In this document: positions 12,926-37,475 of the stretch, in pieces
How positions within the stretch are numbered: position 1 is the stretch's first letter
How the letters are laid out: the number at the start of each line of letters is the position of its first letter
Assembly (NCBI GenBank): GCA_949128115.1
Contig: OX421964.1
Coordinates: 32,976,177 to 33,040,176, forward strand
Source of the DNA: Anaspis maculata
Lineage: Eukaryota; Arthropoda; Insecta; Coleoptera; Scraptiidae
DNA length: 64,000 bases
Direction: 5' to 3'
The notes under the pieces: model-generated
Seen by the model: only the letters and a program-made list of their open reading frames with translations
Told to the model about the DNA's origin: nothing
Databases searched by the model: none
Program-made: the position numbers and the translations under genes

Positions 12926-12943
12926 TACCGCCCCCCTTGAAAG
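12926..12943 (-). promoter_or_regulatory. Polypurine tract of the BEL/Pao element
   Basis: On the minus strand the bases next to the 3' LTR read CTTTCAAGGGGGGCGGTA. This is a purine-rich tract ending at the LTR boundary, where plus-strand DNA synthesis is primed. Confidence 0.75.
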
Positions 12944-12971
12944 ATTGCAGTGTGTGGTCTTTCAATAAGGA

Positions 12972-15900: not shown

Positions 15901-17732
15901 CTGGATTGTTTTTGAACGCTGTGATGCGGCAAGTAGCAAACCACGCCATCATCATTCCGAGAATCGATCTCAGTCATGTGTCCCATAGACTCATATGCAT
16001 GCATGAAGTCTACGTAATCCTTTCGAAGTTCGGGATTTTTTTGTAACTTTCGCTCAATGACATGGAACCGTTTAATGGCTGTCTCCTGAGATTCACCCAA
16101 CTGATCATAGTTTGATCGCAAGGGAAGTTTTACCGTGAAACGCCCAGATAAATCGCGTTCAAAATTTTGCTTAAAATGTTCCTCACATTCCAACTCCTCA
16201 TAAGACAGGTTAGGCAGTCGCGGAGGCTCTTCCAACTTCCAGAAACGTTCCAATTGATCCTGCACGGTGACATTTGACGAGAAAAAACAAGAGTTAGTTG
16301 GAATCGCTAGGCCGGAAATGGGACCGGACATTATCCAACCAAACTGTGACTTTTGAAGTGTCGGAAGACCGTTACCCAGCTTTACTTGACCCACACAAAG
16401 CAAATCAAAATAAATACCGGCACCGATCAAAATATCTATCTGACTGGATTCGCAGTAGGTAGGATCGGCCAAAATTATATTATTGGGTATGTTGAGTTTT
16501 GAGCTGGAAAACGAATGTTGTGGAATGCGATCGGTGATTTGATTCATAATAAGAAAAGAAAGGTCTGCCTTGTATTGAGATGTGCAAGATTTTACCGTAG
16601 TTTGAGTTTTCGAGGTTATGTTGGTTACAACTTGATTTATCCCGCAAACAGGAAAATTTATTTTCGTTCCTCGCAGCTTCAGTCGCTTCTGAAGATTTTG
16701 AGTCATGAAATTGGATTGTGATCCGGAATCCAAGAGTGCGCGACATTTAACAAAGTTATTCTGAGAATCTGCAATATATACGATTGCCGTGGAAAGAAGT
16801 ATTTGTGTGTCATGTGCTAACTGGTTACAATGATTATTGATTGATTGACCAAAGCCATCTGGACGTGATGAGTTACCAAAGTGAAGCAAGGTATTGTGAC
16901 GCTTACCACATTTTCGACACCCGCTTGACCTACATTCAGAATTTGAATGTCCGGGTCTTAAACAATTGGTACAAAGTTTGAGCCTTTTGATTTCTTCGCG
17001 GCGCAGCTCAGGCGATGAGTCAAGAATTTTCTTGCACTGGTAGATAAAATGAGAACCCTTGCACATTTCACAAACCGGTGTGAGTGTAGCGGCGTGAGTA
17101 AGAGTTTTTTGGATTTTTTGTGTTGTGATTTTGTTATCAATAGCTTCCAAAAGTTGGCACCTACTGGCAATGAATTTTGTGAAATCATCTATCGTGGGAG
17201 ATTGTATGTTTTTAATCGAAATTTCCCATTCCCTTTTGGTTGTGGAGTCTAATTTCGAAGATAAAAGATAGATAAGCATGGTGTCCCATTGCTCCACGGG
17301 CTCTTTGAGAGTTTGAAGTGATCGATAATGTTTCAAAAATGTATCTAGAAAGTTTCGCAGTAGTTGGTAACCCTCTTTTTGGAGATTAGGAAGCTCAAAA
17401 ATGCCCTTAACATGACTATTAATTATCACCTTTTTGTTTTCGAATCGTTCCTTCAACAACTGCCATGCCACATTGTAATTTGCATCCGTAACCTCCAATG
17501 ACTGGATTACCTGAGCTGCTTCTCCCTTCAGAGATGATTGCAAGTAAAAAAACTTTTGAACATTGCTCAAATTGACGTTACTGTGGATTAGAGCCGAAAA
17601 TGTGTCATAGAATTGAAGCCACTTGTCGTACGCGCCGTTGAAATCAATCAAATTTATTTTAGGTAGTTTGATGTCCGGTTGTGCATTTAGAGTTGACTGA
17701 GCGGGAGGAAACTGCTGAACAACTGGCGTCAT
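12972..17732 (-). CDS. BEL/Pao Gag-Pol polyprotein (PR, RT, RNase H, IN)
   Basis: 1586 codons with no internal stop. Residues 20-200 form a DUF1759-type Gag domain. Three zinc-knuckle-like motifs follow at 221-283 (the second, from C254, is canonical CX2CX4HX4C). The aspartic protease motif DSGS is at 335-338. Reverse transcriptase shows FTADVAKMYRQV at 660-671 and the catalytic YVDD at 739-742. RNase H acidic residues fit D916, E960 and D992. Integrase has its HHCC finger (H1223/H1227, C1257, C1260) and a DDE triad fitting D1292, D1358 and E1408 (PHFGGLWE). A C-terminal DUF5641-like domain spans about 1485-1582. The protein copies and integrates the element. The start ATG overlaps the stop of the upstream ORF as ATGA, so translation may rely on reinitiation or a -1 shift. 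All key residues look intact. Confidence 0.93.
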   Translation of the reverse strand: MTPVVQQFPPAQSTLNAQPDIKLPKINLIDFNGAYDKWLQFYDTFSALIHSNVNLSNVQKFFYLQSSLKGEAAQVIQSLEVTDANYNVAWQLLKERFENKKVIINSHVKGIFELPNLQKEGYQLLRNFLDTFLKHYRSLQTLKEPVEQWDTMLIYLLSSKLDSTTKREWEISIKNIQSPTIDDFTKFIASRCQLLEAIDNKITTQKIQKTLTHAATLTPVCEMCKGSHFIYQCKKILDSSPELRREEIKRLKLCTNCLRPGHSNSECRSSGCRKCGKRHNTLLHFGNSSRPDGFGQSINNHCNQLAHDTQILLSTAIVYIADSQNNFVKCRALLDSGSQSNFMTQNLQKRLKLRGTKINFPVCGINQVVTNITSKTQTTVKSCTSQYKADLSFLIMNQITDRIPQHSFSSSKLNIPNNIILADPTYCESSQIDILIGAGIYFDLLCVGQVKLGNGLPTLQKSQFGWIMSGPISGLAIPTNSCFFSSNVTVQDQLERFWKLEEPPRLPNLSYEELECEEHFKQNFERDLSGRFTVKLPLRSNYDQLGESQETAIKRFHVIERKLQKNPELRKDYVDFMHAYESMGHMTEIDSRNDDGVVCYLPHHSVQKQSSVTTKTRIVFDASAKTSSGLSLNDCLKVGPTIQSDLFSILLRFRKHNIAFTADVAKMYRQVNVHETQRDLQRIVWRSGPDNPLKHFQLNTVTYGTASASFLATRCLVQVANENQESHSQACQVIKDDFYVDDLITGCTDVDSGITLKQDLEYVLGGAGFELRQWIASDPHVLTGDSKCELSQYILTDDGNVKTLGVSWDSRKDVFNYTTNVSNHFNPKNVTKRAILSVIAKIFDPLGLVGPVVLKAKVILQKLWQLGLTWDESVPMDLYTIWSKLYQQLSNMNTIRVPRHILVKYPVIIMVHAFSDASEQAYGACVYIYSHDECNRATVRLLCAKSRVAPLKVVTIPRLELCAALLMTQLVDKIIIALKLPIASSDIHYWSDSTIALHWISRKPCNWKTFVSHRVSKIQQLSNGAHWHHVPSGDNPADILSRGMDPAQLAVSSLWWNGPSWLRGDEADWPKSQPIVLDTIPESKPANIALVSSVSIDIFDRFSTLSKLQRVVAYCLRFKNNLTIDRDNKTIGPLTLSELKNSLFVLTKVTQAQAFERELDSLRQLKIPRKGKLHTLNPFLDSQGLIRVGGRLRYSQLSFDKKHPIVLPSNHPFTKLLIAHEHHRNLHAGPQAILSAIRQTYWPLSGRHTVRSVLRKCVTCFRVKPTSVTPPMGNLPSSRVTPSRIFASSGVDYAGPFPIKDGKSRNRKIIKAYVCIFVCFSSKAVHLELTSDLTSESFLNVLKRFVSRRGLCSDLYSDNATNFTGANKILRSIAQIAEKSEVQTFATENNIRWHFIPARSPHFGGLWEAAVKSAKYHLKRVLTNIHLTFEEFYTLLTQVEAIMNSRPLFPMSNDPSDLEPLTPGHFIIGAPMNALPQEDVTNVSPNRLRRYMHLQQMNQHFWTRWSKDYLHHLHQTATGKQQPAIQPGALVVLKEDNTPPLSWPMGRITAVHPGADGVVRVVSIKTRNATVVKRAVKNICLLPNED

Positions 17733-18055
17733 GCTTTGTTTTCGTTTTGCTTGAGCACAATTTGGAAAAAATCGTTCTCAAATTCATTTCTGAGCGAGGA
17801 TGCCTCAGACCCGGTCTGATCACCGTGTTTTTCCAAGAAAAGCTGCACGGTTTCAAACTCGGACAATAAAGGTTCAACCCTGTCGAGACGCAATTGTATT
17901 TCGATTGATTTGTCGTGGTCATCGCTCAAATTGCTTATGAAATCAGAAAATCGTGCTAATTGTAAAATTATTTGATCGCGGCGGGTTTTGTGGTCAGCAA
18001 TTTGTTCGACCAGGCTATCTGGTGATTCTGGTGTTTTTGACTTTTTCGGAGGCAT
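17729..18055 (-). CDS. Short N-terminal Gag ORF of the BEL/Pao element
   Basis: 108 residues beginning MPPKKSKTPESPDSL, charged and largely helical, likely forming a coiled coil (heptad-like leucines in 'RLDRVEPLLSEFETVQLFLEK'). In most BEL/Pao elements a segment like this is fused to the front of the DUF1759 Gag domain. Here it is a separate frame that stops at 17729-17731 inside the four-base overlap ATGA with the next ORF. I see no classical X-XXY-YYZ slippery heptamer just upstream (the codons are GAA AAC AAA GCA), which favours termination-reinitiation or a simple frameshift lesion. The start was chosen as the first ATG after the leader. Confidence 0.75.
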   Translation of the reverse strand: MPPKKSKTPESPDSLVEQIADHKTRRDQIILQLARFSDFISNLSDDHDKSIEIQLRLDRVEPLLSEFETVQLFLEKHGDQTGSEASSLRNEFENDFFQIVLKQNENKA

Positions 18056-18295
18056 TGCGAGGCGAGATAAGTTGCAAAGTACCTACACTTCGAGACGTTA
18101 TTAATAAACAAACCGTGAAAATACGATAAATTCGAGACGTGTGATGATGATAAAATCGAGTTTTAGAGTTTTAGACCTGCTTTTATTGCCTACGAGGCTT
18201 ACGCAATAAGAAGCAAGCATGAGTCAACAAGGAAAATGGTAAGAAAGGAACGGGCTCACCGTGGTTCGCTGCTGAATTCCTCGCTGAATTCCATC

Positions 18296-18313
18296 CGTGC
18301 GCCTGAAGGACCA
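18296..18313 (-). promoter_or_regulatory. Primer binding site of the BEL/Pao element
   Basis: Two bases inside the 5' LTR the minus strand reads TGGTCCTTCAGGCGCACG. It begins TGG, complementary to a tRNA CCA end. The tRNA species cannot be named without a tRNA set. Confidence 0.7.
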
Positions 18314-18315
18314 AA

Positions 18316-18571
18316 TGTTGCGTCCAGGAAGTAACGAACGCTGATTTTGGTTTAACTGACTTTACTCATACTCATCAGCAAACAATACATTATGGTATAT
18401 AATGATAAACGATGCATAAACAAACAAAGAACTGCACTTCTTGTTGGGACCGACGCAATTGACGTGCTGCTGCCTGCTCCGCCGTGCGCCATCTCACATC
18501 TGCGACGTGAACCTCGTCGCCGGCTGACCATGGGCGGCGTTGGCGTAAGTAGAGCAGAGGCGGCGGCAACA
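18316..18571 (-). repeat. BEL/Pao 5' LTR
   Basis: 256 bp from TGTTGCGTCC to GGCGGCAACA, apparently identical to 12670-12925. In the minus-strand sense it is the 5' LTR and should contain the element promoter. Both LTRs are followed in that sense by the expected elements (PBS here, ACCTA at the other end). Confidence 0.92.
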
Positions 18572-18576
18572 ACCTA
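18572..18576. repeat. BEL/Pao target-site duplication, right (ACCTA)
   Basis: ACCTA directly after the LTR, matching 12665-12669. The last two bases are also the first two of the adjacent MITE end. Confidence 0.9.
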
Positions 18577-18790
18577 TATCATATACACTTTCTATTTTTA
18601 GTAGAATGACTTTTTGGAGCGAAAATAAAGTGACAAGCTAGGGGGCTACGGCTACGACTGATGGCACCTGCAAAGTTTCGAAGCGAAACTATCAGGGGCC
18701 ATCGGCCGTATTTTCCCAGCGCTCCAGCTTGTCACTTTATTTTTGCTCCAAAAAGTCATTCTACTGAAAATAGAAAGTGTATGGGATATA
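18575..18790. mobile_element. 216-bp MITE with ~65-bp TIRs
   Basis: The left arm (TATATC..., 'cactttctatttttagtaga', 'ctttttggagc', 'aagtgacaagct') is repeated inverted at 18711-18790, ending GATATA. The middle contains a short GC-rich hairpin ('ggccatcggccg'). There is no ORF. The BEL/Pao element inserted at its left edge. Confidence 0.8.
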
Positions 18791-19316
18791 GTTGTTATTC
18801 ATTCAGAAAAACGAAGTAAGACGCCACTCACAGACGATAACAAACCCCATCATTAACGTTTGGCACCAAGAGGTCTCATTCATCGGTAGCCTGGGTCAAA
18901 GTCAAGTTTGAGTAGCCCGAAGTCTGCTGGTCTGCTGCTTGGTTCGCGTGGAGTGGATGGTGGTTTTTTGTGTTGGTGCAGTCATTTTAAATTCAAATAA
19001 ATGTCACAAATGTCATGTGATTTGATGTTTTGAATTATACGTTACACGTCAAAAATGACAAAACGCGATTAAACCTTGAATACGCTCAAATGTCGGTAAA
19101 GTAGGTCACCTTTGGTTTGCGCGTGAGGTTCACCGAGTGACGTCATAGATTAATAGGAAATAATTTTTTTCTAGAAAATTAGAGGCGAGATTAATGTGCC
19201 TGTTACATGGAAGGCCTAATTAGATCATAAACAATTGGAATACTCCATAAAAATTACTACTTTTTTCCCAATATAACACCCCATTATGATTGGATCATTA
19301 AGTCTAATAATTAATG
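18791..19316. other. Intergenic stretch beyond the OBP-like gene's 3' end
   Basis: No ORF or repeat boundary that I can support. 19240-19290 contains 'cccaatataacaccccatt', which is similar, inverted, to 12105-12140. It may be the far end of an older element that held the BEL insertion. Confidence 0.3.
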
Positions 19317-19500: not shown

Positions 19501-19857
19501 TTATTCATCGTTCATGAAAGCCGGCGGCGACGGCGGTGGCGGGAAGAAGTCATTGTGCTTTCCAATCTTATCTCTCACCCAGGCGCAGGCTTTCTGGTCC
19601 TTTATCTGGTCGTCGGGGCATCCGCGCTGAATTTCCCTAAGCAAGCAGTGCTCGAGCTTAATGCCCGCAGGATTACAAGACTCGCCGTCGGAGGCTGCGG
19701 TGCTTGCGTCGTCGCGGTTGGCGGTGGCGTTCCTGGCCTCGTCCAAGCACATTGACGCCACCTTCTCGTGGATGGCTTCGAACCACGGCTCTGACGTCGT
19801 CAGTTTTTCGATGAAGGCCTTGATTTCCTCGTCTTTCGGGTTCCCCTTTTCGTCCAG
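19501..19857 (-). CDS. OBP-like gene exon 3 (C-terminal)
   Basis: The acceptor GGTTTTTCAG precedes 19857 in phase 0, matching exon 2. It encodes residues 122-239 with C158, C182, C192, C201 and C212 and a proline-rich tail, ending at TAA. The C182/C192/C201 block ('KLEHCLLREIQRGC') is the most OBP-like part. Confidence 0.75.
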   Translation of the reverse strand: MDEKGNPKDEEIKAFIEKLTTSEPWFEAIHEKVASMCLDEARNATANRDDASTAASDGESCNPAGIKLEHCLLREIQRGCPDDQIKDQKACAWVRDKIGKHNDFFPPPPSPPAFMNDE

Positions 19858-22800
19858 CTGAAAAACCAAATCGGCTTTAAAAGTACTAACTCAATTTTTT
19901 CAAGGAGGGTTATAGAGGGTTACAGCATGAGAGAGCTCAACCCAGATTCTGGGCGGTGTAAATTGAAGCCGCTAGGGCATGCCAAGGAATTGTGTATGCA
20001 ATCCGCAACATACCAACCATTTCGGCTTGACCTTGGGACACTGCGTGACTTTGATGTTGCGCAGGGAATAGCACCGTTATGGTTCAAGATAATCATATTT
20101 TTCAACGAATTTTCCTACTTCCAGATTGGTCCAGGGTGGTCTCAACAACAGGCAGGCAAAGTGACAATGCTTGGTATTAAAGTGCAAGGTACCTTTTATT
20201 TTCTGCCCTCAACATCCAACTATACGGGTTGTCCGCGGGAAAAAACTTACTCTGGAAATAACTCATACAATTTTCAAGATATAAATTTCCACTCTGACAG
20301 TGTTGATCAGCGACGCGGGGGACGTAACTAAGCGGTGTATCACACCTCCCTATTTAAGTGGTTCTTTTTCCATTGTTTTTTTCTGAACTAGAATTTTATT
20401 CTGAATATAGCTGCAGAAACCGAAAAAAAATCCTCAAAAGTGACCTCCGAATTTAAAAAATAGATAAATCATTGCTCAAGCTAGTCAAGTGTTATCTCGC
20501 CAATGTTAAGTTATAGGCATCAAACTTGAAAATTCACGGTGGATGTTAAATTGATTTTTCAATAGGGATGTTAAATTGTACTGCACAGAAATGTCGTTAT
20601 GATAATTGACTGAAAAAATTCATGCCAAGTACCCCTATCCACCCTTCTCACCTGTATCACCCTTCATTGATTGATTTTGGTCGTATTTAAAAAAGTTCTG
20701 AAGAAACATATTTAAAAAAGTTCTGAAGAAACATTTTTTTTGTTTCAACAGCACCGGTGTGAAGACAGCAAACTTGAGATAGCAGAAATTTTACCGAAGA
20801 TTGCCGAACGCCCAGTGGCGCACCACAGATCAAGATTCATACGTGCATGCCTCTAGTTGATGTATTCGGCATAAAGAAAAGTAGAAAAGCTCAATAAAGC
20901 ATGGCAAGATTATGGCACCCGTTTGTGCTTTCACACAAACTCATCAATCGAAATAACTAAACTTAATTTTTCTTTTCTTAATTATTTGAATCATCTCGAC
21001 AATCGAAATTAATTCAGCAATCATTTCTTCGGGAACACAAATTGTGATCACTTTTATATAAACGTAAGTTGTAGAGCTCATCCAGAGCAACAATTTCATG
21101 CAAGAAAATCAACTCGCACTAGGTTTCCCGGGGGTTAAAACTCACCCCAAACACTAAGTTGTCACCTAGAAACCGAGATTTGCATAAAGTGCCCACACAA
21201 AAAAATTGTTTTTTCGGGAACGCAAATTGTGATCCTTTTTATACTGATATAAGTCGTAGAGCTCATCCAGAGCAACAATCATGCAGGAAAATCAACTCGC
21301 ACTAGGTTTCCCGGGGGTTAAAACTCACCCCAAACACTAAGTTGTCACCTAGAAACAGATATTCGCATAAAGTGCTCACACAAAAAAAATGTTTTTTCGG
21401 GAACGCAAATTGTGATCCTTTTTATACTAATATAAGTCGTAGAGCTCATCCAGAGCAACAATTTCATGCAAGAAAATCAACTCGCACTAGGTTTCCCGGG
21501 GGTTAAAACTTACCCCAAACACTAAGTTGTCACCTAGAAACAGAGATTCGCATAAAGTGCTCACACAAAAAAATTGTTTTTTCGGGAACGCAAATTGTGA
21601 TCCTTTTTATACTGATATAAGTCGTAGAGCTCATCCAGAGCAACAATTTCATGCAAGAAAATCAACTCGCACTAGGTTTCCCGGGGGTTAAAACTCACCC
21701 CAAACACTAAGTTGTCACCTAGAAACAGAGATTCGCATAAAGTGCTTACACAAAAAAATTGTTTTTTCGGGAACGCAAATTGTGATCCTTTTTATACTGA
21801 TATAAGTCGTAGAGCTCATCCAGAGCAACAATTTCATGCAAGAAAATCAACTCGCACTAGGTTTCCCGGGGGTTAAAACTCACCCCAAACACTAAGTTGT
21901 CACCTAGAAACAGAGATTCGCATAAAGTGCTCACACAAAAAAATTGTTTTTTCGGGAACGCAAATTGTGATCCTTTTTATACTGATATAAGTCGTAGAGC
22001 TCATCCAGAGCAACAATTTAATGCAAGAAAATCAACTCGCACTAGGTTTCCCGGGGGTTAAAACTCACCCCAAACACTAAGTTGTCACCTAGAAACGGAG
22101 ATTCGCATAAAGTGCTCACACAAAAAAATTGTTTTTTGGGGAACGCAAATTGTGATCCTTTTTATACTGATATAAGTCGTAGAGCTCATCCAGAGCAACA
22201 ATTTCATGCAAGAAAATCAACTCGCACTAGGTTTCCCGGGGGTTAAAACTTACCCCAAACACTAAGTTGTCACCTAGAAACGGAGATTCGCATAAAGTGC
22301 TCACACAAAAAAATTGTTTTTTCGGGAACGCAAATTGTGATCCTTTTTATACTGATATAAGTCGTAGAGCTCATCCAGAGCAACAATTTCATGCAAGAAA
22401 ATCAACTCGCACTAGGTTTCCCGGGGGTTAAAACTTACCCCAAACACTAAGTTGTCACCTAGAAACGGAGATTCGCATAAAGTGCTCACACAAAAAAATT
22501 GTTTTTTCGGGAACGCAAATTGTGATCCTTTTTATACTGATATAAGTCGTAGAGCTCATCCAGAGCAACAGTTTCATGCAAGAAAATCAACTCGCACTAG
22601 GTTTCCCGGGGGTTAAAACTCACCCAAAACACTAAGTTGTCACCTAGAAACGGAGATTCGCATAAAGTGCCCACACAAAAAAATTGTTTTTTCGGGAACG
22701 CAAATTGTGATCCTTTTTATACTGATATAAGTCGTAGAGCTCATCCAGAGCAACAATTTCATGCAAGAAAATCAACTCGCACTAGGTTTCCCGGGGGTTA

Positions 22801-25800
22801 AAACTCACCCAAAACATTAAGTTGTCACCTAGAAACGGAGATTCGCATAAAGTGCCCACACAAAAAAATTGTTTTTTCGGGAACGCAAATTGTCATCCTT
22901 TTTATACTGATATAAGTCGTAGAGCTCATCCAGAGCAACAATTTCATGCAAGAAAATCAACTCGCACTAGGTTTCCCGGGGGTTAAAACTTACCCCAAAC
23001 ACTAAGTTGTCACCTAGAAACGGAGATTCGCATATAGTGCTCACACAAAAAAATTGTTTTTTCGGGAACGCAAATTGTGATCCTTTTTATACTGATATAA
23101 GTCGTAGAGCTCATCCAGAGCAACAATTTCATGCAAGAAAATCAACTCGCACTAGGTTTCCCGGGGGTTAAAACTCACCCCAAACACTAAGTTGTCACCT
23201 AGAAACAGAGATTCGCATAAAGTGCTCACACAAAAAAATTGTTTTTTCGGGAACGCAAATTGTGATCCTTTTTATACTGATATAAGTCGTAGAGCTCATC
23301 CAGAGCAACAGTTTCATGCAAGAAAATCAACTCGCACTAGGTTTCCCGGGGGTTAAAACTCACCCAAAACATTAAGTTGTCACCTAGAAACGGAGACTCG
23401 CATAAAGTGCCCACACAAAAAAATTGTTTTTTCGGGAACGCAAATTGTGATCCTTTTTATACTAATATAAGTCGTAGAGCTCATCCAGAGCAACATGTTC
23501 ATGCAAGAAAATCAACTCGCACTAGGTTACTTGGGGGTTAAAACTCACCCCAAACACTAAGTTGTCACCTAGAAACAGTGATTCGCTAAAAGTGCCCACA
23601 CAAAAAAATTGTTTTTTCGGGAACGCAAATTGTGATCCTTTTTATACTGATATAAGTCGTAGAGCTCATCCAGAGCAACAATTTCATGCAAGAAAACCAA
23701 CTCGCACTAGATTTCCCGGGGGTTAAAACCCACCCCAAACACTAAGTTGTCACCTAGAAACAGAGATTCGCATAAAGTGCTCACACAAAAAAATTGTTTT
23801 TTCGGGAACGCAGATTGTGATCCTTTTTATACTGATATAAGTCGTAGAGCTCATCCAGAGCAACAATTTCATGCAAGAAAATCAACTCGCACTAGGTTTC
23901 TTGGGGGTTAAAACTCACCCCAAACACTAAGTTGTCACCTAGAAACAGAGATTCGCTAAAAGTGCCCACACAAAAAAATTGTTTTTTCGGGAACGCAAAT
24001 TGTGATCCTTTTTATACTGATATAAGTCGTAGAGCTCATCCAGAGCAACAATTTCATGCAAATTTCAATTTTTTTGTGTGAGCACTTTATGCGAATCTCT
24101 GTTTCTAGGTGACAACTTAGTGTTTGGGGTGAGTTCTAACCCCCGGGAAACCTAGTGCGAGTTGATTTTCTTGCATGAAACTGTTGCTCTAGATGAGCTC
24201 TACGACTTATATCAGTATAAAAAGGATCACAATTTGCGTTCCCAAAAAAACAATTTTTTTGTGTGAGCACTTTATGCGAATCTCTGTTTCTAGGTGACAA
24301 CTTAGTGTTTGGGGTGAGTTTTAACCCCCGGGAAACCTAGTGCGAGTTGATTTTCTTGCATGAAATTGTTGCTCTGGATGAGCTCTACGACTTATATCAG
24401 TATAAAAAGGATCACAATTTGCGTTCCCGAAAAAACAATTTTTTTGTGTGAGCACTTTATGCGAATCTCTGTTTCTAGGTGACAACTTAGTGTTTGGGGT
24501 GAGTTTTAACCCCCGGGAAACCTAGTGCGAGTTGATTTCCTTGCATGAAATTGTTGCTCTGGATGAGCTCTACGACTTATATCAGTATAAAAAGGATCAC
24601 AATTTGCGTTCCCGAAAAAACAATTTTTTTGTGTGAGCACTTTATGCGAATCTCTGTTTCTAGGTGACAACTTAGTGTTTGGGGTGAGTTTTAACCCCCG
24701 GGAAACCTAGTGCGAGTTGATTTCCTTGCATGAAATTGTTGCTCTGGATGAGCTCTACGACTTATATCAGTATAAAAAAGATCACGATTTGCGTTCCCGA
24801 AAAAACAATTTTTTTGTGTGGGCACTTTATGCGAATCTCTGTTTCTAGGTGACAACTTAGTGTTTGGGGTGAGCTTTAACCCCCGGGAAACCTAGTGCGA
24901 GTTGATTTTCTTGCATGAAATTGTTGCTCTGGATGAGTCCTACGACTTATATCAGTATAAAAAGGATCACAATTTGCGTTCTCGAAAAAACAATTTTTTT
25001 GTGTGGGCACTTTATGCGAATCTCCGTTTCTAGGTGACAACTTAGTGTTTGGGGTGAGTTTTAACCCCCGGGAAACCTAGTGCGAGTTGATTTTCTTGCA
25101 TGAAATTGTTGCTCTGGATGAGCTCTACGACTTATATCAGTATAAAAAAGATCACAATTTGCGTTCCCGGAAAAACAATTTTTTTGTGTGAGCACTTTAT
25201 GCGAATCTCTGTTTCTAGGTGACAACTTAGTGTTTGGGGTGAGTTTTAACCCCCGGGAAACCTAGTGCGAGTTGATTTTCTTGCATGAAATTGTTGCTCT
25301 GGATGAGTCCTACGACTTATATCAGTATAAAAAGGATCACAATTTGCGTTCCCAAAAAAACAATTTTTTTGTGTGAGCACTTTATGCGAATCTCTGTTTC
25401 TAGGTGACAACTTAGTGTTTGGGGTGAGTTTTAACCCCCGGGAAACCTAGTGCGAGTTGATTTTCTTGCATAAAATTGTTGCTCTGGATGAGGTCTACGA
25501 CTTATATCAGTATAAAAAGGATCACAATTTGCGTTCCCGAAAAAACAATTTTTTTGTGTGAGCACTTTATGCGAATCTCTGTTTCTAGGTGACAACTTAG
25601 TGTTTGGGGTGAGTTTTAACTTCCGGGAAACCTAGTGCGAGTTGATTTTCTTGCATGAAATTGTTGCTCTGGTTGAGCTCTACGACTTATATCAGTATAA
25701 AAAGGATCACAATTTGCGTTCCCGAAAAAACAATTTTTTTGTGTGAGCACTTTATGCGAATCTCTGTTTCTAGGTGACAACTTAGTGTTTGGGGTGAGTT

Positions 25801-28800
25801 TTAACCCCCGGGAAACCTAGTGCGAGTTGATTTCCTTGCATGAAATTGTTGCTCTGGATGAGCTCTACGACTTATATCAGTATAAAAAGGATCACGATTT
25901 GCGTTCCCGAAAAAACAATTTTTTTGTGTGGGCACTTTATGCGAATCTCTGTTTCTAGGTGACAACTTAGTGTTTGGGGTGAGCTTTAACCCCCGGGAAA
26001 CCTAGTGCGAGTTGATTTTCTTGCATGAATTTGTTGCTCTGGATGAGTCCTACGACTTATATCAGTATAAAAAGGATCACAATTTGCGTTCTCGAAAAAA
26101 CAATTTTTTTGTGTGGGCACTTTATGCGAATCTCCGTTTCTAGGTGACAACTTAGTGTTTGGGGTGAGTTTTAACCCCCGGGAAACCTAGTGCGAGTTGA
26201 TTTTCTTGCATGAAATTGTTGCTCTGGATGAGCTCTACGACTTATATCAGTATAAAAAGGATCACAATTTGCGTTCCCGGAAAAACAATTTTTTTGTGTG
26301 AGCACTTTATGCGAATCTCTGTTTCTAGGTGACAACTTAGTGTTTGGGGTGAGTTTTAACCCCCGGAAAACCTAGTGCGAGTTGATTTTCTTGCATGAAA
26401 TTGTTGCTCTGGATGAGCTCTACGACTTATATCAGTATAAGAAGGATCACAATTTGCGTTCCCAAAAAAACAATTTTTTTGAGTGGGCACTTTTAGCGAA
26501 TCTCTGTTTCTAGGTGACAACTTAGTGTTTGGGGTGAGTTTTAACCCCCAAGAAACCTAGCGCGAGTTGATTTTCTTGCATGAAATTGTTGCTCTGGATA
26601 AGCTCTACGACTTATATCAGTATTAAAAGGATCACAATTTGCGTTCCCGAAAAAACAATTTTTTTGTGTGGGCACTTTATGCGAATCTCTGTTTCTAGGT
26701 GACAACTTAGTGTTTGGGGTGAGTTTTAACCCCCGGGAAACCTAGTGCGAGTTGATTTTCTTGCATGAAATTGTTGCTCTGGATGAGCTCTACGACTTAT
26801 ATCAGTATAAGAAGGATCACAATTTGCGTTCCCAAAAAAACAATTTTTTTGAGTGGGCACTTTTAGCGAATCTCTGTTTCTAGGTGACAACTTAGTGTTT
26901 GGGGTGAGTTTTAACCCCCAAGAAACCTAGTGCGAGTTGATTTTCTTGCATGAAATTGTTGCTCTGGATAAGCTCTACGACTTATATCAGTATTAAAAGG
27001 ATCACAATTTGCGTTCCCGAAAAAACAATTTTTTTGTGTGGGCACTTTATGCGAATCTCTGTTTTTAGGTGACAACTTAGTGTTTGGGGTGAGTTTTAAC
27101 CCCCGGGAAACCTAGTGCGAGTTGATTTTCTTGCATGAAATTGTTGCTCTGGATGAGCTCTACGACTTATATCATTATAAAAAGGATCACAATTTGCGTT
27201 CCCGAAAAAACAATTTTTTTGTGTGGGCACTTTTAGCGAATCACTGTTTCTAGGTGACAACTTAGTGTTTGGGGTGAGTTTTAACCCCCAAGTAACCTAG
27301 TGCGAGTTGATTTTCTTGCATGAACATGTTGCTCTGGATGAGCTCTACGACTTATATTAGTATAAAAAGGATCACAATTTGCGATCACAATTTGCGTTCC
27401 CGAAAAAACAATTTTTTTGTGTGAGCACTTTACGCGAATCTCTGTTTCTAGGTGACAACTTAGTGTTTGGGGTGAGTTTTAACCCCCGGGAAACCTAGTG
27501 CGAGTTGATTTCCTTGCATGAAATTGTTGCTCTGGATGAGCTCTACGACTTATATCAGTATAAAAAGGATCACGATTTGCGTTCCCGAAAAAACAATTTT
27601 TTTGTGTGGGCACTTTATGCGAATCTCCGTTTCTAGGTGACAACTTAGTGTTTGGGGTGAGTTTTAACCCCCGGGAAACCTAGTGCGAGTTGATTTTCTT
27701 GCATGAAATTGTTGCTCTGGATGAGCTCTACGACTTATATCAGTATAAAAAGGATCACAATTTGCGTTCCCGAAAAAACAATTTTTTTGTGTGAGCACTT
27801 TATGCGAATCTCTGTTTCTAGGTAACAACTTAGTGTTTGGGGTGAGCTTTAACCCCCGGGAAACCTAGTGCGAGTTGATTTTCTTGCATGAAATTGTTGC
27901 TCTGGATGAGCTCTACGACTTATATCAGTATAAAAAGGATCACAATTTGCGTTCCCGAAAAAACAATTTTTTTGTGTGAGCACTTTATGCGAATCTCTGT
28001 TTCTAGGTGACAACTTAGTGTTTGGGGTGAGTTTTAACCCCCGGGAAACCTAGTGCGAGTTGATTTTCTTGCATGAAATTGTTGCTCTGGATGAGCTCTA
28101 CGACTTATATCAGTATAAAAAGGATCACAATTTGCGTTCCCGAAAAAACAATTTTTTTGTGTGGGCACTTTATGCGAATCTCCGTTTCTAGGTGACAACT
28201 TAATGTTTTGGGTGAGTTTTAACCCCCGGGAAACCTAGTGCGAGTTGATTTTCTTGCATGAAACTGTTGCTCTGGATGAGCTCTACGACTTATATCAGTA
28301 TAAAAAGGATCACAATTTGCGTTCCCGAAAAAACAATTTTTTTGTGTGAGCACTTTATGCGAATCTCTGTTTCTAGGTGACAACTTAGTGTTTGGGGTGA
28401 GTTTTAACCCCCGGGAAACCTAGTGCGAGTTGATTTTCTTGCATGAAATTGTTGCTCTGGATGAGCTCTACGACTTATATCAGTATAAAAAGGATCACAA
28501 TTTGCGTTCCCGAAAAAACAATTTTTTTGTGTAAGCACTTTATGCGAATCTCTGTTTCTAGGTGACAACTTAGTGTTTGGGGTGAGTTTTAACCCCCGGG
28601 AAACCTAGTGCGAGTTGATTTTCTTGCATGAAATTGTTGCTCTGGATGAGCTCTACGACTTATATCAGTATAAAAAGGATCACAATTTGCGTTCCCGAAA
28701 AAACAATTTTTTTGTGTGAGCACTTTATGCGAATCTCTGTTTCTAGGTGACAACTTAGTGTTTGGGGTAAGTTTTAACCCCCGGGAAACCTAGTGCGAGT

Positions 28801-31800
28801 TGATTTTCTTGCATGAAATTGTTGCTCTGGATGAGCTCTACGACTTATATCAGTATAAAAAGGATCACAATTTGCGTTCCCGAAAAAACAATTTTTTTGT
28901 GTGAGCACTTTATGCGAATCTCTGTTTCTAGGTGACAACTTAGTGTTTGGGGTAAGTTTTAACCCCCGGGAAACCTAGTGCGAGTTGATTTTCTTGCATG
29001 AATTTGTTGCTCTGGATGAGTCCTACGACTTATATCAGTATAAAAAGGATCACAATTTGCGTTCTCGAAAAAACAATTTTTTTGTGTGGGCACTTTATGC
29101 GAATCTCCGTTTCTAGGTGACAACTTAGTGTTTGGGGTGAGTTTTAACCCCCGGGAAACCTAGTGCGAGTTGATTTTCTTGCATGAAATTGTTGCTCTGG
29201 ATGAGCTCTACGACTTATATCAGTATAAAAAGGATCACAATTTGCGTTCCCGGAAAAACAATTTTTTTGTGTGAGCACTTTATGCGAATCTCTGTTTCTA
29301 GGTGACAACTTAGTGTTTGGGGTGAGTTTTAACCCCCGGGAAACCTAGTGCGAGTTGATTTTCTTGCATGAAATTGTTGCTCTGGATGAGCTCTACGACT
29401 TATATCAGTATAAGAAGGATCACAATTTGCGTTCCCAAAAAAACAATTTTTTTGAGTGGGCACTTTTAGCGAATCTCTGTTTCTAGGTGACAACTTAGTG
29501 TTTGGGGTGAGTTTTAACCCCCAAGAAACCTAGCGCGAGTTGATTTTCTTGCATGAAATTGTTGCTCTGGATAAGCTCTACGACTTATATCAGTATTAAA
29601 AGGATCACAATTTGCGTTCCCGAAAAAACAATTTTTTTGTGTGGGCACTTTATGCGAATCTCTGTTTCTAGGTGACAACTTAGTGTTTGGGGTGAGTTTT
29701 AACCCCCGGGAAACCTAGTGCGAGTTGATTTTCTTGCATGAAATTGTTGCTCTGGATGAGCTCTACGACTTATATCAGTATAAGAAGGATCACAATTTGC
29801 GTTCCCAAAAAAACAATTTTTTTGAGTGGGCACTTTTAGCGAATCTCTGTTTCTAGGTGACAACTTAGTGTTTGGGGTGAGTTTTAACCCCCAAGAAACC
29901 TAGTGCGAGTTGATTTTCTTGCATGAAATTGTTGCTCTGGATAAGCTCTACGACTTATATCAGTATTAAAAGGATCACAATTTGCGTTCCCGAAAAAACA
30001 ATTTTTTTGTGTGGGCACTTTATGCGAATCTCTGTTTCTAGGTGACAACTTAGTGTTTGGGGTGAGTTTTAACCCCCGGGAAACCTAGTGCGAGTTGATT
30101 TTCTTGCATGAAATTGTTGCTCTGGATGAGCTCTACGACTTATATCAGTATAAAAAGGATCACAATTTGCGTTCCCGAAAAAACAATTTTTTTGTGTGGG
30201 CACTTTTAGCGAATCACTGTTTCTAGGTGACAACTTAGTGTTTGGGGTGAGTTTTAACCCCCAAGTAACCTAGTGCGAGTTGATTTTCTTGCATGAACAT
30301 GTTGCTCTGGATGAGCTCTACGACTTATATTAGTATAAAAAGGATCACAATTTGCGATCACAATTTGCGTTCCCGAAAAAACAATTTTTTTGTGTGAGCA
30401 CTTTACGCGAATCTCTGTTTCTAGGTGACAACTTAGTGTTTGGGGTGAGTTTTAACCCCCGGGAAACCTAGTGCGAGTTGATTTCCTTGCATGAAATTGT
30501 TGCTCTGGATGAGCTCTACGACTTATATCAGTATAAAAAGGATCACGATTTGCGTTCCCGAAAAAACAATTTTTTTGTGTGGGCACTTTATGCGAATCTC
30601 CGTTTCTAGGTGACAACTTAGTGTTTGGGGTGAGTTTTAACCCCCGGGAAACCTAGTGCGAGTTGATTTTCTTGCATGAAATTGTTGCTCTGGATGAGCT
30701 CTACGACTTATATCAGTATAAAAAGGATCACAATTTGCGTTCCCGAAAAAACAATTTTTTTGTGTGAGCACTTTATGCGAATCTCTGTTTCTAGGTAACA
30801 ACTTAGTGTTTGGGGTGAGCTTTAACCCCCGGGAAACCTAGTGCGAGTTGATTTTCTTGCATGAAATTGTTGCTCTGGATGAGTCCTACGACTTATATCA
30901 GTATAAAAAGGATCACAATTTGCGTTCTCGAAAAAACAATTTTTTTGTGTGGGCACTTTATGCGAATCTCCGTTTCTAGGTGACAACTTAGTGTTTTGGG
31001 TGAGTTTTAACCCCCGGGAAACCTAGTGCGAGTTGATTTTCTTGCATGAAACTGTTGCTCTGGATGAGCTCTACGACTTATATCAGTATAAAAAGGATCA
31101 CAATTTGCGTTCCCGAAAAAACAATTTTTTTGTGTGAGCACTTTATGCGAATCTCTGTTTCTAGGTGACAACTTAGTGTTTGGGGTGAGTTTTAACCCCC
31201 GGGAAACCTAGTGCGAGTTGATTTTCTTGCATGAAACTGTTGCTCTGGATGAGCTCTACGACTTATATCAGTATAAAAAGGATCACAATTTGCGTTCCCG
31301 AAAAAACAATTTTTTTGTGTGAGCACTTTATGCGAATCTCTGTTTCTAGGTGACAACTTAGTGTTTGGGGTGAGTTTTAACCCCCGGGAAACCTAGTGCG
31401 AGTTGATTTTCTTGCATGAAATTGTTGCTCTGGATGAGCTCTACGACTTATATCAGTATAAAAAGGATCACAATTTGCGTTCCCGAAAAAACAATTTTTT
31501 TGTGTAAGCACTTTATGCGAATCTCTGTTTCTAGGTGACAACTTAGTGTTTGGGGTGAGTTTTAACCCCCGGGAAACCTAGTGCGAGTTGATTTTCTTGC
31601 ATGAAATTTTTGCTCTGGATGAGCTCTACGACTTATATCAGTATAAAAAGGATCACAATTTGCGTTCCCGAAAAAACATTTTTTTTGTGTGAGCACTTTA
31701 TGCGAATCTCTGTTTCTAGGTGACAACTTAGTGTTTGGGGTAAGTTTTAACCCCCGGGAAACCTAGTGCGAGTTGATTTTCTTGCATGAAATTGTTGCTC

Positions 31801-34398
31801 TGGATGAGCTCTACGACTTATATCAGTATAAAAAGGATCACAATTTGCGTTCCCGAAAAAACAATTTTTTTGTGTGAGCACTTAATGCGAATCTCTGTTT
31901 CTAGGTGACAACTTAGTGTTTGGGGTAAGTTTTAACCCCCGGGAAACCTAGTGCGAGTTGATTTTCTTGCATGAAATTGTTGCTCTGGATGAGCTCTACG
32001 ACTTATATCAGTATAAAAAGGATCACAATTTGCGTTCCCGAAAAAACAATTTTTTTGTGTGAGCACTTTATGCGAATCTCTGTTTCTAGGTGACAACTTA
32101 GTGTTTGGGGTAAGTTTTAACCCCCGGGAAACCTAGTGCGAGTTGATTTTCTTGCATGAAATTGTTGCTCTGGATGAGCTCTACGACTTATATCAGTATA
32201 AAAAGGATCACAATTTGCGTTCCCGAAAAAACAATTTTTTTGTGTGAGCACTTTATGCGAATCTCTGTTTCTAGGTGACAACTTAGTGTTTGGGGTGAGT
32301 TTTAACCCCCGGGAAACCTAGTGCGAGTTGATTTTCTTGCATGAAATTGTTGCTCTGGATGAGCTCTACGACTTATATCAGTATAAAAAGGATCACAATT
32401 TGCGTTCCCGAAAAAACAATTTTTTTGTGTGAGCACTTTATGCGAATCTCTGTTTCTAGGTGACAACTTAGTGTTTGGGGTGAGTTTTAACCCCCGGGAA
32501 ACCTAGTGCGAGTTGATTTTCTTGCATGAAATTGTTGCTCTGGATGAGCTCTTCGACTTATATCAGTATAAAAAGGATCACAATTTGCGTTCCCGAAAAA
32601 ACAATTTTTTTGTGTGGGCACTTTATGCGAATCTCTGTTCCTAGGTGACAACTTAGTGTTTGGGGTGAGTTTTAACCCCCGGGAAACCTGGTGCGAGTTG
32701 ATTTTCTTGCATGAAATTGTTGCTCTGGATGAGCTCTACGACTTATATCAGTATAAAAAGGATCACAATTTGCGTTCCCGAAAAAACAATTTTTTTGTGT
32801 GGGCACTTCATGCGAATCTCCGTTTCTAGGTGACAACTTAGTGTTTGGGGTGAGTTTTAACCCCCGGGAAACCTAGTGCGAGTTGCTTTTCTTGCATGAA
32901 ATTGTTGCTCTGGATGAGCTCTACGACTTATATCAGTATAAAAAGGATCACAATTTGCGTTCCCGAAAAAACAATTTTTTTGTGTGAGCACTTTATGCGA
33001 ATCTCTGTTTCTAGGTGACAACTTAGTGTTTGGGGTGAGTTTCAACCCCCGGGAAACCTAGTGCGAGTTGATTTTCTTGCATGAAATTGTTGCTCTGGAT
33101 GAGCTCTACAACTTACGTTTATATAAAAGTGATCACAATTTGCGTTCCCGAAGAAATGATTGCTGAATTAATATTTCGATTGTCGAGATGATTCAAATAA
33201 TTAAGAAAAGATAAATTAAGTTTAGTTATTTCGATTGATGAGTTTGTGTGAAAGCACAAACGGGTGCCATAATCTTGCCATGCTTTATTGAGGTTTTCTA
33301 CTTTTCTTTATGCCGAATACATCAACTAGAGGCATGCACGTATGAATCTTGATCTGTGGTGCGCCACTGGGCGTTCGGCAATCTTCGGTAAAATTTCTGC
33401 TATCTCAAGTTTGCTGTCTTCACACCGGTTTCAACAGCTATATTCAGAATGAAATTCTAGCACAGTGTCAAATTTGTAATTTATATCTTAAAAATTGTAT
33501 AAAATTGTTCTTTCGTGTTTTTTGGAGTAGGAGGGTAGGTAAAAAACAGTGCAATTAAATTTTTCGCAACGTTTCGCCGACTAATGACGGCTTCGCTAGG
33601 CGAATAATACGTATAAAAAATTGATAAATGTCAAAAATATGAGCCGTAGATAATTATTACCAAAAAACCCAAAAGAACAATGTTTATACAAAAAAATAAA
33701 GGATAGATAATCTACAACATTGAAAATTGAGGAAATTATTTCCGCTGTAAGTTTTTGCGCAGCCATCCCGGTATGCAGATGCACGATGCATACAAAGTTA
33801 GCGAATAATTCGAATCGAGACGCATCAGGAAGTTACCGATTAAGCTTAGGAAATATATTGCGACCTTGGCATTAGCTCACCATGTCTTTCTTCTGTCCGA
33901 CGCACTGCACCACGCACTGCAACATGAATCGTAAATCAATTTTCATCAGAAAGACCAGAACCTCGCTCACTTATCATACCGTCATGTCTCTTCTGTGTCT
34001 TTTCATTCGATCACAGTTGAAGGGATCGTGTTCGACTCCCACATCCGTAAGGGCGTGTTGAGACCTCACTTCTTTGAAACACTCCCTCCTGATTTTCTTG
34101 TCATCGTCGCGTCGTTTTTCAAAAGTCTCTTCGGCACAGCACAACGCTGGTTTCCATCTTTTTCTGCACTTATCGACGGCTTCTTCGTCGCGTCGGTGCC
34201 TGGGATGCGAAAAGGGGTCTTCAGTCAGTTCGTCCAAATCGTTTGCCAAATATCGGTCTGAAATTAATCAAGTATAAGTTGGTTTTTGACCGTGGTCAGT
34301 GTGCGAAATTTACTGAAAACGGAATCTTCAAAATTGTAGGCTTGAGCCAAAACCACAACAGTGAGCACAAGAGCACTGGTTGCGATAACTCGGTTCAT
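19501..34398 (-). CDS. Odorant-binding-protein-like secreted protein, 3 exons
   Basis: Exons 34398-34314, 34257-33980 and 19857-19501 join into 720 nt (239 residues). Intron 1 is 56 bp (GTAAAT...TTTCAG, phase 1). Intron 2 is 14.1 kb (GTATGA...TTTCAG, phase 0). Residues 1-20 are a signal peptide (MNRVIATSALVLTVVVLAQA). Cysteines lie at 59, 68, 69, 88, 110, 158, 182, 192, 201 and 212. C192-x8-C201 matches the C5-C6 spacing of the PBP/GOBP family, and the CC pair plus extra cysteines suggest an atypical Plus-C-like member. The tail has a run of prolines (PPPPSPPAF). The protein would be secreted and bind small hydrophobic ligands. Intron 2 contains the whole foldback element at 20753-33429. Splice phases agree and no stop interrupts the join, so the gene looks intact. 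Other secreted cysteine-rich roles are possible. Confidence 0.7.
19858..20743. other. Intron 2 of the OBP-like gene, left of the foldback
   Basis: No exon-like frame is needed here; the 134-codon plus-strand frame at 19927-20331 has no family motif. 'ctagaattttattctgaata' near 20390 is an inverted match to DNA just right of the foldback (33434-33460). Confidence 0.45.
20684..20733. repeat. 25-bp unit in two perfect tandem copies
   Basis: 'tatttaaaaaagttctgaag' plus 'aaaca' occurs at 20684-20708 and again at 20709-20733, just outside the left end of the foldback element. Confidence 0.85.
20744..20752. repeat. 9-bp target-site duplication, left (TTCAACAGC)
   Basis: TTCAACAGC directly precedes the element end ACCGGTGTGAAG and recurs directly after the opposite end at 33430-33438. 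A 9-bp duplication is typical of Drosophila FB elements and of Mutator-like (MULE) elements. Confidence 0.88.
20753..21072. repeat. Left unique tip of the foldback
   Basis: 320 bp with a near-identical inverted copy at about 33111-33429. Shared landmarks: 'caaacttgagatagcagaa', 'gcccagtggcgcaccacaga', 'gcatggcaagattatggcac' and the diverged first satellite unit 'cacttttatataaacgtaag'. Such tips are where a transposase would bind. Confidence 0.85.
21073..24060 (+). repeat. 185-bp satellite array, left arm (~16 units)
   Basis: Successive 'agagctcatccagagcaaca' starts fall at 21073, 21258, 21441, 21626, 21811, 21996 and 22181, spacing 183-185 bp. Units include 'actaggtttcccgggggtta', 'aagttgtcacctagaaac' and 'cgggaacgcaaattgtgatc'. 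Variants such as 'cgctaaaagtgcc' and 'ttcttgggggtt' near the inner end also occur, inverted, in the right arm. Confidence 0.95.
24061..33110 (-). repeat. 185-bp satellite array, right arm (~49 units, inverted)
   Basis: The same 185-bp unit read in reverse complement. The switch point is 24061-24067, where 'tttcatgcaa' gives way to 'tttcaatttttttgtgtgag'. Units are highly similar. Occasional variants include a 12-bp internal duplication ('atcacaatttgcg' doubled) at 27371 and 30344. Short frames reported inside (32614-32829, 32857-33045) are read-through of the satellite, not genes. Confidence 0.95.
26000..31950. repeat. Higher-order tandem duplication, 2,973-bp period
   Basis: Five rare variants recur exactly 2,973 bp apart: 'ttgcatgaatttgttg' 26021/28994, 'gagtgggcac' 26481/29454, the 12-bp doubling 27371/30344, 'gtaagcactt' 28531/31504 and 'tttggggtaa' 28761/31734. 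That is 16 monomers plus 12-13 bases. One monomer is lost and one gained inside the second copy (28203/30991 differ by 2,788). A smaller 1,110-bp (6-unit) repeat links 24781/25891 and 24871/25981. Confidence 0.85.
33111..33429. repeat. Right unique tip of the foldback
   Basis: Inverted copy of 20753-21072, with only scattered substitutions and ending GCTGTCTTCACACCGGT. Confidence 0.85.
33430..33438. repeat. 9-bp target-site duplication, right (TTCAACAGC)
   Basis: Matches 20744-20752 and abuts the foldback end. Confidence 0.88.
33439..33979. other. Intron 2 of the OBP-like gene, right of the foldback
   Basis: The intron donor is at 33979-33978 on the minus strand. The small frames at 33349-33558 (which begins in the foldback tip) and 33596-33784 show no family motif and are treated as chance. 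Confidence 0.45.
33980..34257 (-). CDS. OBP-like gene exon 2
   Basis: The acceptor TTAATTTCAG precedes 34257 and the donor ACG|GTATGA follows 33980. It encodes residues 29-121, including C59, C68, C69, C88 and C110, and is strongly charged (many R, K, D, E). The 278-nt length completes the phase-1 codon from exon 1 and ends in phase 0. Confidence 0.75.
34314..34398 (-). CDS. OBP-like gene exon 1 (signal peptide)
   Basis: The ATG at 34398 opens a frame with one basic residue, a 15-residue hydrophobic core and an AQA-type cleavage site, followed by YNFEDSVF. It ends at A|GTAAAT, a strong donor. It was too short to stand out as an ORF and was found by working back from exon 2. Confidence 0.72.
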
Positions 34399-34445: not shown

Positions 34446-35134
34446 GTGGTTCAAATTGCGGATCATCACGTGGTAAACTAATGCCTATAAGCTCTACGTT
34501 TTATTTCTACCTAACTGAAAATACTACTTGGAGGTGTTTTTTTGTGTGTGGTGGAGGCGTCACTTGACTATTAGTTTAGTGTTTAGTTTTGCAGTGAACT
34601 TCACGCGTTTGCACATCGTGCAAGTCATTTGATTTGTTTTGCTGTGACAATATAGCAAAATAACTTATAATAATATAGGTAATTACAGTGTTGGATACGT
34701 ACCACAGGAAATGTTGAGTATTGCGGGGAATCCTTGTTAGCGAAAATGAGCTGGAATTATATGAAATTGTAAAAAACGATAAAAAAGCTTTTGTCTAATT
34801 TTTTTATCGCTCCACCTCAACTACTTTTATATAATACCAATTTTCCTTTTATTATTGAATGGTGCAACTACTCTGATGAGACCAAGAACATTTAATACAT
34901 GTAATACAATAAATGAATAAATAAAAATGTAGCTACAATACCTGCCCAAGAAAATGGCTGTGAACATAAATAAATTCTTGTTACTTACAAGGTGAATTCC
35001 AAAGCCGGTAAAATGGTTAAACCCATAATGACGCCAGGATTGAGAGAGATAAATATTTGGCTTCCTTCGACCTGTGGGTTAATCATATACCTATAAAATA
35101 ACTATACCGCGTACGTCCCCTGATTTATGCCACC
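34446..35134. other. Upstream region of the OBP-like gene, no other gene seen
   Basis: AT-rich, with no ORF over 60 codons of interest. Any distal regulatory DNA of the minus-strand gene would lie here, but I see no specific site beyond the core promoter. Confidence 0.35.
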
Positions 35135-37475
35135 GAACTTGACCCCAACATGATAAGCAGGAGCCTCGTTATGCGCAAGCGCCAACTCAATTGAAATCCA
35201 AGTTGGCGAGCATAATTTTCTGCGCTGTTTCTGCCTTGGCGAAGTACAAACGAACGAACCGCTCTTGGCGCTGTATGACATTTCCTATCGCCAGTGACAT
35301 TTGTCAAATTTGTAGGTTAGGCTGTGCTTTTTCCAAACAAATTCCTTCTAAAAACTGAAAAACTAAAAGTAGTAAAAGTAGCAAAGACGCAGTGAAGCAC
35401 ACAGAAGAGCCCACGTCCAGCTGTCGTGGTGTGACGTGCTTGAATAAACAAGCAAACATCCAAAAGGTTTGTTTTCAACCAGTACAAAGTGCACCTTCCA
35501 TATAATGTATCGATTTTAGGGCCTCATGCTTTTAAAATCGATAAGGACCGAAACAGATTATACATACTGCAACGCATGACAAGAGGATTCATCAACTGCC
35601 CTGTATTCGGGTACCACAAGTTGGTTTATTTCGAAACAGTCTTGTTCAGCGTGTCTGACATTGTGCCAAAGCCAAATCAGTGAATGATTGGAGTTTGTTT
35701 TCGTTTCCTGGAGCGAGGTCGGTACCAATGAATGTAGTTCAATACTTAGAAATAGAATGCCCAAATGATAATGGCTCTTATCTGTTGTTCATTTTAGAGA
35801 TTTACGGAGATAATTTACAACGGAAGCTTTTGAAGAAAGCACAGAGCCTGTAAGGAACTACGTGGAACGTGGTTAATATGGAACTATGAACGAAATGAAC
35901 TGCTTGTGATTCAGAGGAAAAATACCTTCTTACTAGAGCCATCACTTATTTTAACAAGAAAAAAACACTAGCAGAGGGTTCCAAAAATTGTGAACATAAT
36001 TATTCCTCGTGTACCTAATTTAGGAATGGTGTGTTGAAAGTAATCCATGTCATAGTTTCAAAATTCAGTACAGTGATACTTCTTTATTATATATCATAAG
36101 AAATGATGTAGTATACAGCTGTAAAATATGAATACAATCATGTTTCTATTGCTATTATTATCATTTTATTATACAGAGTGAATCCGTATCATGATTGACT
36201 TTACATAGACCAAAGGCAGATAGCGGTCTTCTAGGGAAGTCAGGATCCACAAGAGAATTTTTTTTGTCCATTGCTCACCATCACCATGATGATAAATATA
36301 TGTGGCTTTGTGTGTTTGTTATGAAAGTTTGATTAGAGATATTTCTGAAAGGGTTAAAACATATTTTGTTGAAATTAATTTAGTAATATTCCTCTGTTTG
36401 GACTTGTCAAGTAACCATACTGATCGTGGGTTCCACTAAAATATTCAATTAGTTGATAGCCAATTCGAAATAGATCTCTTGATGGATTCTGGCCAAACAA
36501 TCAATGTAAATTCAGGTTTCACACTGGGTACTCAACGAAAGGGTTGTATACTTGCAATTGAACGTATTTTCCATAATGAATTACCAGCGTTGATCAGAAA
36601 AAATCCGTTTAAACTCGGTTCAGCTTAAACTGCTCAAATTTTTTGGTGGAATCCGTGGTAAGTGAATTAAAAGGGCCAATGTAGGAAAAAATGTGCCTCT
36701 GTGTTATTTGTTGAAAAAAACTTTTCTGACCGCTGTTCTGAAAAACTGTTATCTGGATCAAAAAGTCGATGAATAATGCTATAAGAAAAGTGTTCCGACA
36801 AAAAAATCGGAAGTAGAACTTTGGACCATATTTCAATTTTCGACCGGACATAATGCACAGGTTGTTCAATTGAATCATTCAATTTGTTCTGTGGCTTGAC
36901 TTGTTAGATAGAATTAGCGCTTGGTTAAAAGAAAAATTTCAGAGCCGGACTTTTTTTAGACCTTTCTGCCGAAAATGAATTTGAATTAATTCAGTCCTAC
37001 AATTCGTAGATTTTGTCCGGTCGAAAATTGAAATGAGGTCGAGTGGAGTTCGTGTCGCCTGGCCGTCAAGACGAAACCCGAATGCCATGAAACTTGAAAG
37101 GGGGCCGTGCGGTTTTAATGTGTAAACAGCGGTAAAATGTCTCCGCCGTCCCCCGAGTCGCATTTCCACGCATGACGGGTCAATTTTTCAAAACCAAATC
37201 AGCGAATGATTGGGGTTGGTTTGTTTTTGTTTTTTTTGGAGCATGGTGGGTAGGTACCCGATGAAAAATGTAGATGGTACTGAAAGATAGAATGAGCCAA
37301 GTCAGAATGGTTGTTGTCTGTTGTTCATTTTAGACAGCCTACGGAGATAATTCAAGATACAAAAGGAATGATCTGCTTGTGATTTAGATAGAAAATTCGT
37401 ACTTACTTGAGTTATCACTTATTGTAATCAGAAAAGCACTAGCAGGAGATATCCATAAATAGTGGACATCATTAT

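Follow-up and report, generated by a model that had tools for sequence, protein, structure and literature searches.

An intronic transposon composed nearly wholly of opposed satellite arrays in a predicted odorant-binding-protein gene of the beetle Anaspis maculata

One locus of the beetle Anaspis maculata bears on an open question: how satellite repeats come to lie at dispersed places in euchromatin. In a 64,000-nucleotide stretch of its genome (contig OX421964.1, positions 32,976,177 to 33,040,176, forward strand; hereafter the window), two arrays of a 185-bp satellite face each other inside an intron of a predicted odorant-binding-protein (OBP) gene. An earlier note on this DNA proposed that the array behaves, or behaved, as a transposable unit, and sibling copies, target-site duplications (TSDs), recurring internal junctions and a coding partner all support that proposal. 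We put the probability at roughly 0.9 that positions 20753-33429 are a foldback DNA transposon with inverted tips (98.5% identity), opposed arms and a 9-bp TSD, whose insertion was likely carried out in trans by a transposase of Rehavkus/Mutator type encoded in sister elements.

The element is 12,677 bp long and is bounded at either end by the TSD TTCAACAGC (Table 1). The extent given in the earlier note, 20744..33438 with the duplication included, was right, as was the opposite orientation of the arms. Its perfect 17-bp inverted ends are indeed inverted, but their length was understated: the tips are perfectly inverted over the outer 136 bp and 98.5% identical across 271 bp, and the inverted identity runs on past them into the satellite arrays. 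What had been described as unique tips of ~320 bp are therefore copies of one another in inverse orientation. The tip bears no relation to the satellite, no word of more than 9 bases being common to it and one reference unit, and a search for the satellite's origin in the tip and in the family's coding core (described below) found no significant similarity. With its long inverted arms built of tandem repeats and its TSD-flanked ends, the element falls in the foldback class. It is a transposon composed nearly wholly of two opposed satellite-DNA arrays.

Sibling copies are found elsewhere in the genome. We searched 757.8 Mb in 50 contigs with the left tip and scored 40 of 97 candidates, so that the copy number is a lower bound. 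All 40 match at 97-100% identity and 38 lie outside the window element, the copies elsewhere being 97-99% identical to its left tip; the earlier note had named the lack of other tip copies as grounds for giving up its reading, and such copies exist. They occupy at least 26 loci, the window included, of which 22 were read at both ends and four (L031, L034, L036 and L037) at one end only. The 22 two-ended elements measure 2,473 to 19,113 bp, nested insertions counted in, and every one has opposed satellite arms. A perfect 9-bp TSD flanks 19 of them (18 of 21 when counted by site, L017 and L032 being one site); L011 matches at 8 of 9 bp, and L013 and L022+23 have none. When left and right flanks of different elements were paired as a control, only 2 of 462 pairs were perfect, both from the L017/L032 pair that shares one insertion site. 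Therefore, the duplications are not due to chance.

The two tips of the same element were mutually nearest relatives in only 8 of 42 tips, and mean tip identity was 96.9% within elements compared to 96.5% between them (L032 excluded; the insertion-broken right tip of L027+39 was kept, which depresses both means). At L013 and L022+23 the left and right flanks are mismatched; recombination between elements, of the sort found at inversion breakpoints, may have produced these two loci. One satellite arm (L027, 2700-8264) contains what appears by eye to be a non-LTR (long terminal repeat) retrotransposon, whose open frames run to 521 and 1125 codons. A search of viral contigs with the tip gave no match.

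A coding copy of the family carries a gene-bearing core between its arms, and most other copies lack it. Satellite meets satellite at the centre in 20 of 26 loci (L034 and L036 were not read that far, and L035 was left out of the junction survey). Partial cores persist at L009, where ~1.2 kb of core end lies beside one arm (98.6%) and the other arm is joined into coding sequence, and at L022+23, with ~0.25 kb (~93%). Four central junctions recur among 12 coreless copies at distinct sites: junction A in L028, L024+25, L031 and L038, junction B in L011, L012, L013 and L014, junction C in L016 and L027+39, and junction D in L017 (with its duplicate L032) and L033. Seven further junctions were seen once each, including the window's own, which was not met again in the stretches read of the remaining 25 loci. 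Because each of the four recurrent junctions is shared by copies at separate sites, the coreless form moved, or was copied in some other way, after its junction had formed. We infer that coreless copies were mobilised in trans.

One rival attributes the spread chiefly to segmental duplication, ectopic exchange or gene conversion, so that shared junctions would not record transposition events. It draws on the flanks common to L017 and L032, and on the unmatched flanks at L013 and L022+23, as after recombination between elements. However, shared flanks, the sign of segmental duplication, occur within the junction groups only at L017/L032, and nine of the 11 two-ended group members (L032 set aside) have perfect TSDs that differ from one another, the others being L011 with 8 of 9 bp and L013 with none. 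We regard this rival as unlikely.

The earlier note suggested looking for an autonomous partner that shares the tips. A coding copy with both tips, satellite arms and a perfect 9-bp TSD (GACTGAACG) does exist at C7:5617321-5631772 (L029+L043), but its frames are interrupted by a stop and a frameshift. Its arms hold ~38 satellite units at the 3′ side of the gene and ~4 at the other side, and its core has open frames of 282, 773 and 501 codons on the minus strand. The 773-codon frame gives a weak MULE match (PF10551, E 0.026, 15.4 bits against a cut-off of 27.6) and holds a finger-like Cys/His cluster; the transposase's conserved residues are D, D, CxxH and E. The 501-codon frame contains a YqaJ nuclease (2.4e-19), a Ulp1 peptidase C48 (1.1e-5) and a second such cluster, both clusters being finger-like in their Cys/His spacing, with no Pfam finger model at cut-off. 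Between the first and second frames stands an in-frame stop, and the third lies in a different frame. Consequently, the coding copy is probably defective, unless it is spliced or recoded.

Relatives of this transposase, 1388-1493 aa in length, are single proteins. In four of the five scanned (P0042, P0046, P0048 and P0050) a PHD finger (PF00628) lies directly behind the transposase, and in P0043 it lies at the C-terminus only, just at cut-off; in full-length relatives YqaJ is fused behind the transposase. A search of PDB sequences with the transposase profile returned one weak PHD match (E 0.088). The DDE/RNase H fold and the 9-bp TSD, within the 8-11 bp of the MULE superfamily, both agree with that superfamily. 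Another one, P/Galileo or hAT, with foldback arms acquired by convergence, is improbable: Galileo/P and hAT elements duplicate 7-8 bp, compared to 9 bp here, and PHD fingers in the relatives together with satellite at the ends recall Rehavkus, as far as the available descriptions of it go.

The arms themselves record changes in length. The window's right arm is a tandem of three blocks that repeat every 2,973 bp, or 16 units plus 13 bp. The blocks as cut, which meet near 27383 and 30356, are 3,317, 2,973 and 2,801 bp long; pairwise identity of the parts that align is 98.7, 97.9 and 97.4% (gaps not counted). A lag-16 signal in this arm has a permutation P-value of 0.016, which makes block duplication suggestive; the 13-bp extra, a duplication found at both joints (27370-27396 and 30343-30369), is independent support. 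Among 29 arms with at least 12 full units, some of them partly read, four reached p <= 0.01, uncorrected for multiple tests. Units of one arm resemble each other a little more (96.6%) than units of different elements do (95.9%).

One insertion was assembled twice, as L017 on C2 and L032 on C27, and the ends and TSD of the two agree. Flank pieces are 99.2-99.7% identical among the eight matches listed, with ~2.7 kb of C2 flank lying outside these, and the pair may be a haplotig or a recent duplication. The two copies differ by two units in one left-arm stretch and by a 3.6-kb insertion; because copies of one insertion differ in this way, arms seem to change length in place. Within junction groups, arm collinearity exceeds background for the first few units only, after which the register is lost. 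We therefore make no claim for the intact inheritance of whole arms or for arm length at the time each copy moved.

Long inverted satellite arrays assemble poorly, and the exact arm lengths may be wrong. It is nevertheless very improbable that a hairpin or chimeric read made a single array look inverted, when 22 elements have two ends, 19 of these have exact TSDs, and one locus was assembled again on another contig with the same ends and TSD. A plain satellite array inverted by chromosomal rearrangement and never mobile would suit a sequence that is satellite in bulk, with a tip unrelated to it, but is refuted by the same tips at 40 scored places and by exact 9-bp TSDs in 19 of 22 elements against 2 of 462 control pairs, and has almost no probability left.

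Returning to the foldback transposon, we propose the following mechanism. Coding elements would lose their core through deletions that join both satellite arms, leaving satellite hairpins, and these coreless hairpins would still move, as the transposase would need no more than the tips. Once inserted, and from one insertion to the next, arms would gain or lose length as blocks are duplicated or deleted, through unequal exchange or out-of-register gap repair. The copy in the window would be a coreless hairpin of this origin. Since sibling copies are abundant and one carries transposase-like genes, satellite arrays of this kind likely disperse as mobile elements, and the route for satellite spread that the earlier note envisaged gains support from the same evidence.

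A bolder version, which we consider doubtful, is that satellite-only giant foldbacks form a working dispersal system. A DDE-PHD-YqaJ-Ulp1-PHD transposase, by tip recognition alone, would move up to 19 kb of satellite into genes, while out-of-register repair driven by YqaJ would grow, shrink and homogenise the arms. If so, this beetle's satellite arrays would be transposon bodies, not passengers. Apart from that version, the link of a YqaJ nuclease and the SUMO/ubiquitin-like protease Ulp1 to a foldback transposase offers a lead on how arms may be built. More broadly, one genome likely holds a series of coding element, partial-core copies and coreless satellite hairpins, nearly all with their own 9-bp TSD, so that the dispersal of satellites by transposition can be put to the test in each copy separately.

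The element is placed within an intron because predicted OBP exons lie on either side of it. The intron (33880-19858) spans 14,023 bp, 90% of which is occupied by the element. Joined, the four predicted exons encode a 251-aa protein that scores above the PBP/GOBP cut-off (PF01395, 3.5e-5), and all 20 matches to it stand under the names of species that we take to be beetles, the best being Tribolium castaneum (55%, full length). The gene is a model from sequence that rests on this profile match and these homologues.

Table 1. Coordinates of the foldback element and of the predicted host gene, in window positions.
Feature	Position	Strand	Description
TSD, left copy	20744..20752	.	TTCAACAGC, 9 bp
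Left tip	20753..21023	+	271-bp terminal inverted repeat, external to satellite
Left arm	21024..24061	+	16.4 units of 185-bp satellite
Central junction	24062..24065	.	Arm-to-arm meeting point
Right arm	24066..33156	-	49.0 units of 185-bp satellite, opposed; three tandem blocks
Right tip	33157..33429	-	Inverted copy of left tip, 98.5%
TSD, right copy	33430..33438	.	TTCAACAGC, 9 bp
Host gene exon 1	34314..34398	-	Predicted; includes the OBP gene's start codon and a signal-like stretch
Host gene exon 2	33980..34257	-	Predicted
Host gene exon 3	33881..33916	-	Predicted; element-bearing intron begins after it
Host gene exon 4, last	19501..19857	-	Predicted; far side of element

Other repeats lie in the window. 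A complete-looking BEL/Pao LTR retrotransposon (12670-18571, minus strand) has LTRs of ~260 bp that are 99.6% identical, one open frame of 1601 codons and ACCTA at either side, and is likely a young insertion; a search of viral contigs with its protein gave three pattern matches, none confirmed as relatives. Adjoining its outer end is a short palindromic repeat (18568-18796, 82%). Two near-palindromes (6412-7474 and 51886-52965), each ~76% self-complementary and ~79% identical to each other, perhaps represent another inverted-repeat transposon family. An inverted pair of 1,167 bp (35134-36300 and 52963-54129) is 99.5% identical, with more matching pieces at 36637-37805 and 49518-51850.

Among known systems, the closest is Rehavkus. 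The earlier note's view that such an arm array in another insect lineage looks new is not supported, because Rehavkus-1_TC of Tribolium castaneum has the same anatomy: in the text available, it is a 9.5-kb transposon with a 164-bp satellite within its inverted termini (PMC10218199), and Rehavkus elements generally share the plan (PMC6446971). The accessible part of the latter source gives a 9-bp TSD, terminal inverted repeats (TIRs) of 26-400 bp, a minisatellite, a PHD finger in the transposase and an arthropod or annelid host, and the portion seen of another uses Rehavkus as an outgroup (PMC13359780). The present family agrees in its 9-bp TSD (19 of 22 elements), in 271-bp tips that lie outside the satellite and within that TIR range, in its insect host and in the position of its repeats: the Rehavkus minisatellite lies beside the 3′ TIR, and here the ~38 units of the 185-bp satellite lie at the gene's 3′ side. 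As to the PHD finger, the coding copy has finger-like clusters below the cut-off of the Pfam models, and its relatives have PF00628. Rehavkus has a single transposase open reading frame (ORF); the frames of the coding copy here are split by the stop and frameshift, and its relatives are single proteins. Unlike Rehavkus, 20 of 26 loci here have a coreless centre, and the sections available of the two descriptions (PMC6446971, PMC10218199) make no mention of YqaJ or Ulp1. The family appears to work like Rehavkus and probably belongs there, a match made on described features, not on sequence.

Tetris / DAIBAM of the Drosophila virilis group is, in the published text available to us, the nearest satellite-generating foldback. 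It has an outer tip domain, ~220-bp internal tandem repeats and an 8-10-bp TSD, alters its arm length by repeat duplication and gives rise to satellite arrays that reach 66 copies. The search for Tetris yielded three copies of complete structure but no coding partner, and its authors suggest that larger arrays may have disrupted transposition (PMC4079207). The foldback plan of tip domain plus tandem repeats is the same. In contrast to Tetris, a coding relative was found here and long-armed copies retain both ends and TSDs, and the series of copies in this genome bears on the suggestion that large arm arrays disrupt mobility.

FB/NOF of Drosophila melanogaster is a foldback with tandem-repeat arms and a coding partner, with 31-bp repeats and the NOF coding unit. 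It is alike in plan, by description, although the repeat here is 185 bp. Galileo, of the P superfamily, has a 7-bp TSD and a THAP-domain transposase, whereas the TSD here is 9 bp and THAP gave no match at E <= 0.1 in the three core frames scanned. Its foldback-like arms also contain internal tandem repeats, according to the passages available (PMC4079207). ISL2EU DNA transposons carry a YqaJ exonuclease as a separate ORF beside a DDE/HTH/THAP transposase, in the extract at hand (PMC4482050); YqaJ is thus common to both but, unlike ISL2EU as described there, is fused behind the transposase in the full-length relatives. Among the non-subscription papers listed, judged by title and abstract opening, we found neither a description of this element nor a Rehavkus with YqaJ and Ulp1. 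The structural kind itself is known; what is new is the size, the family-wide evidence, the coreless derivatives, the recurrent junctions and the YqaJ/Ulp1-bearing partner.
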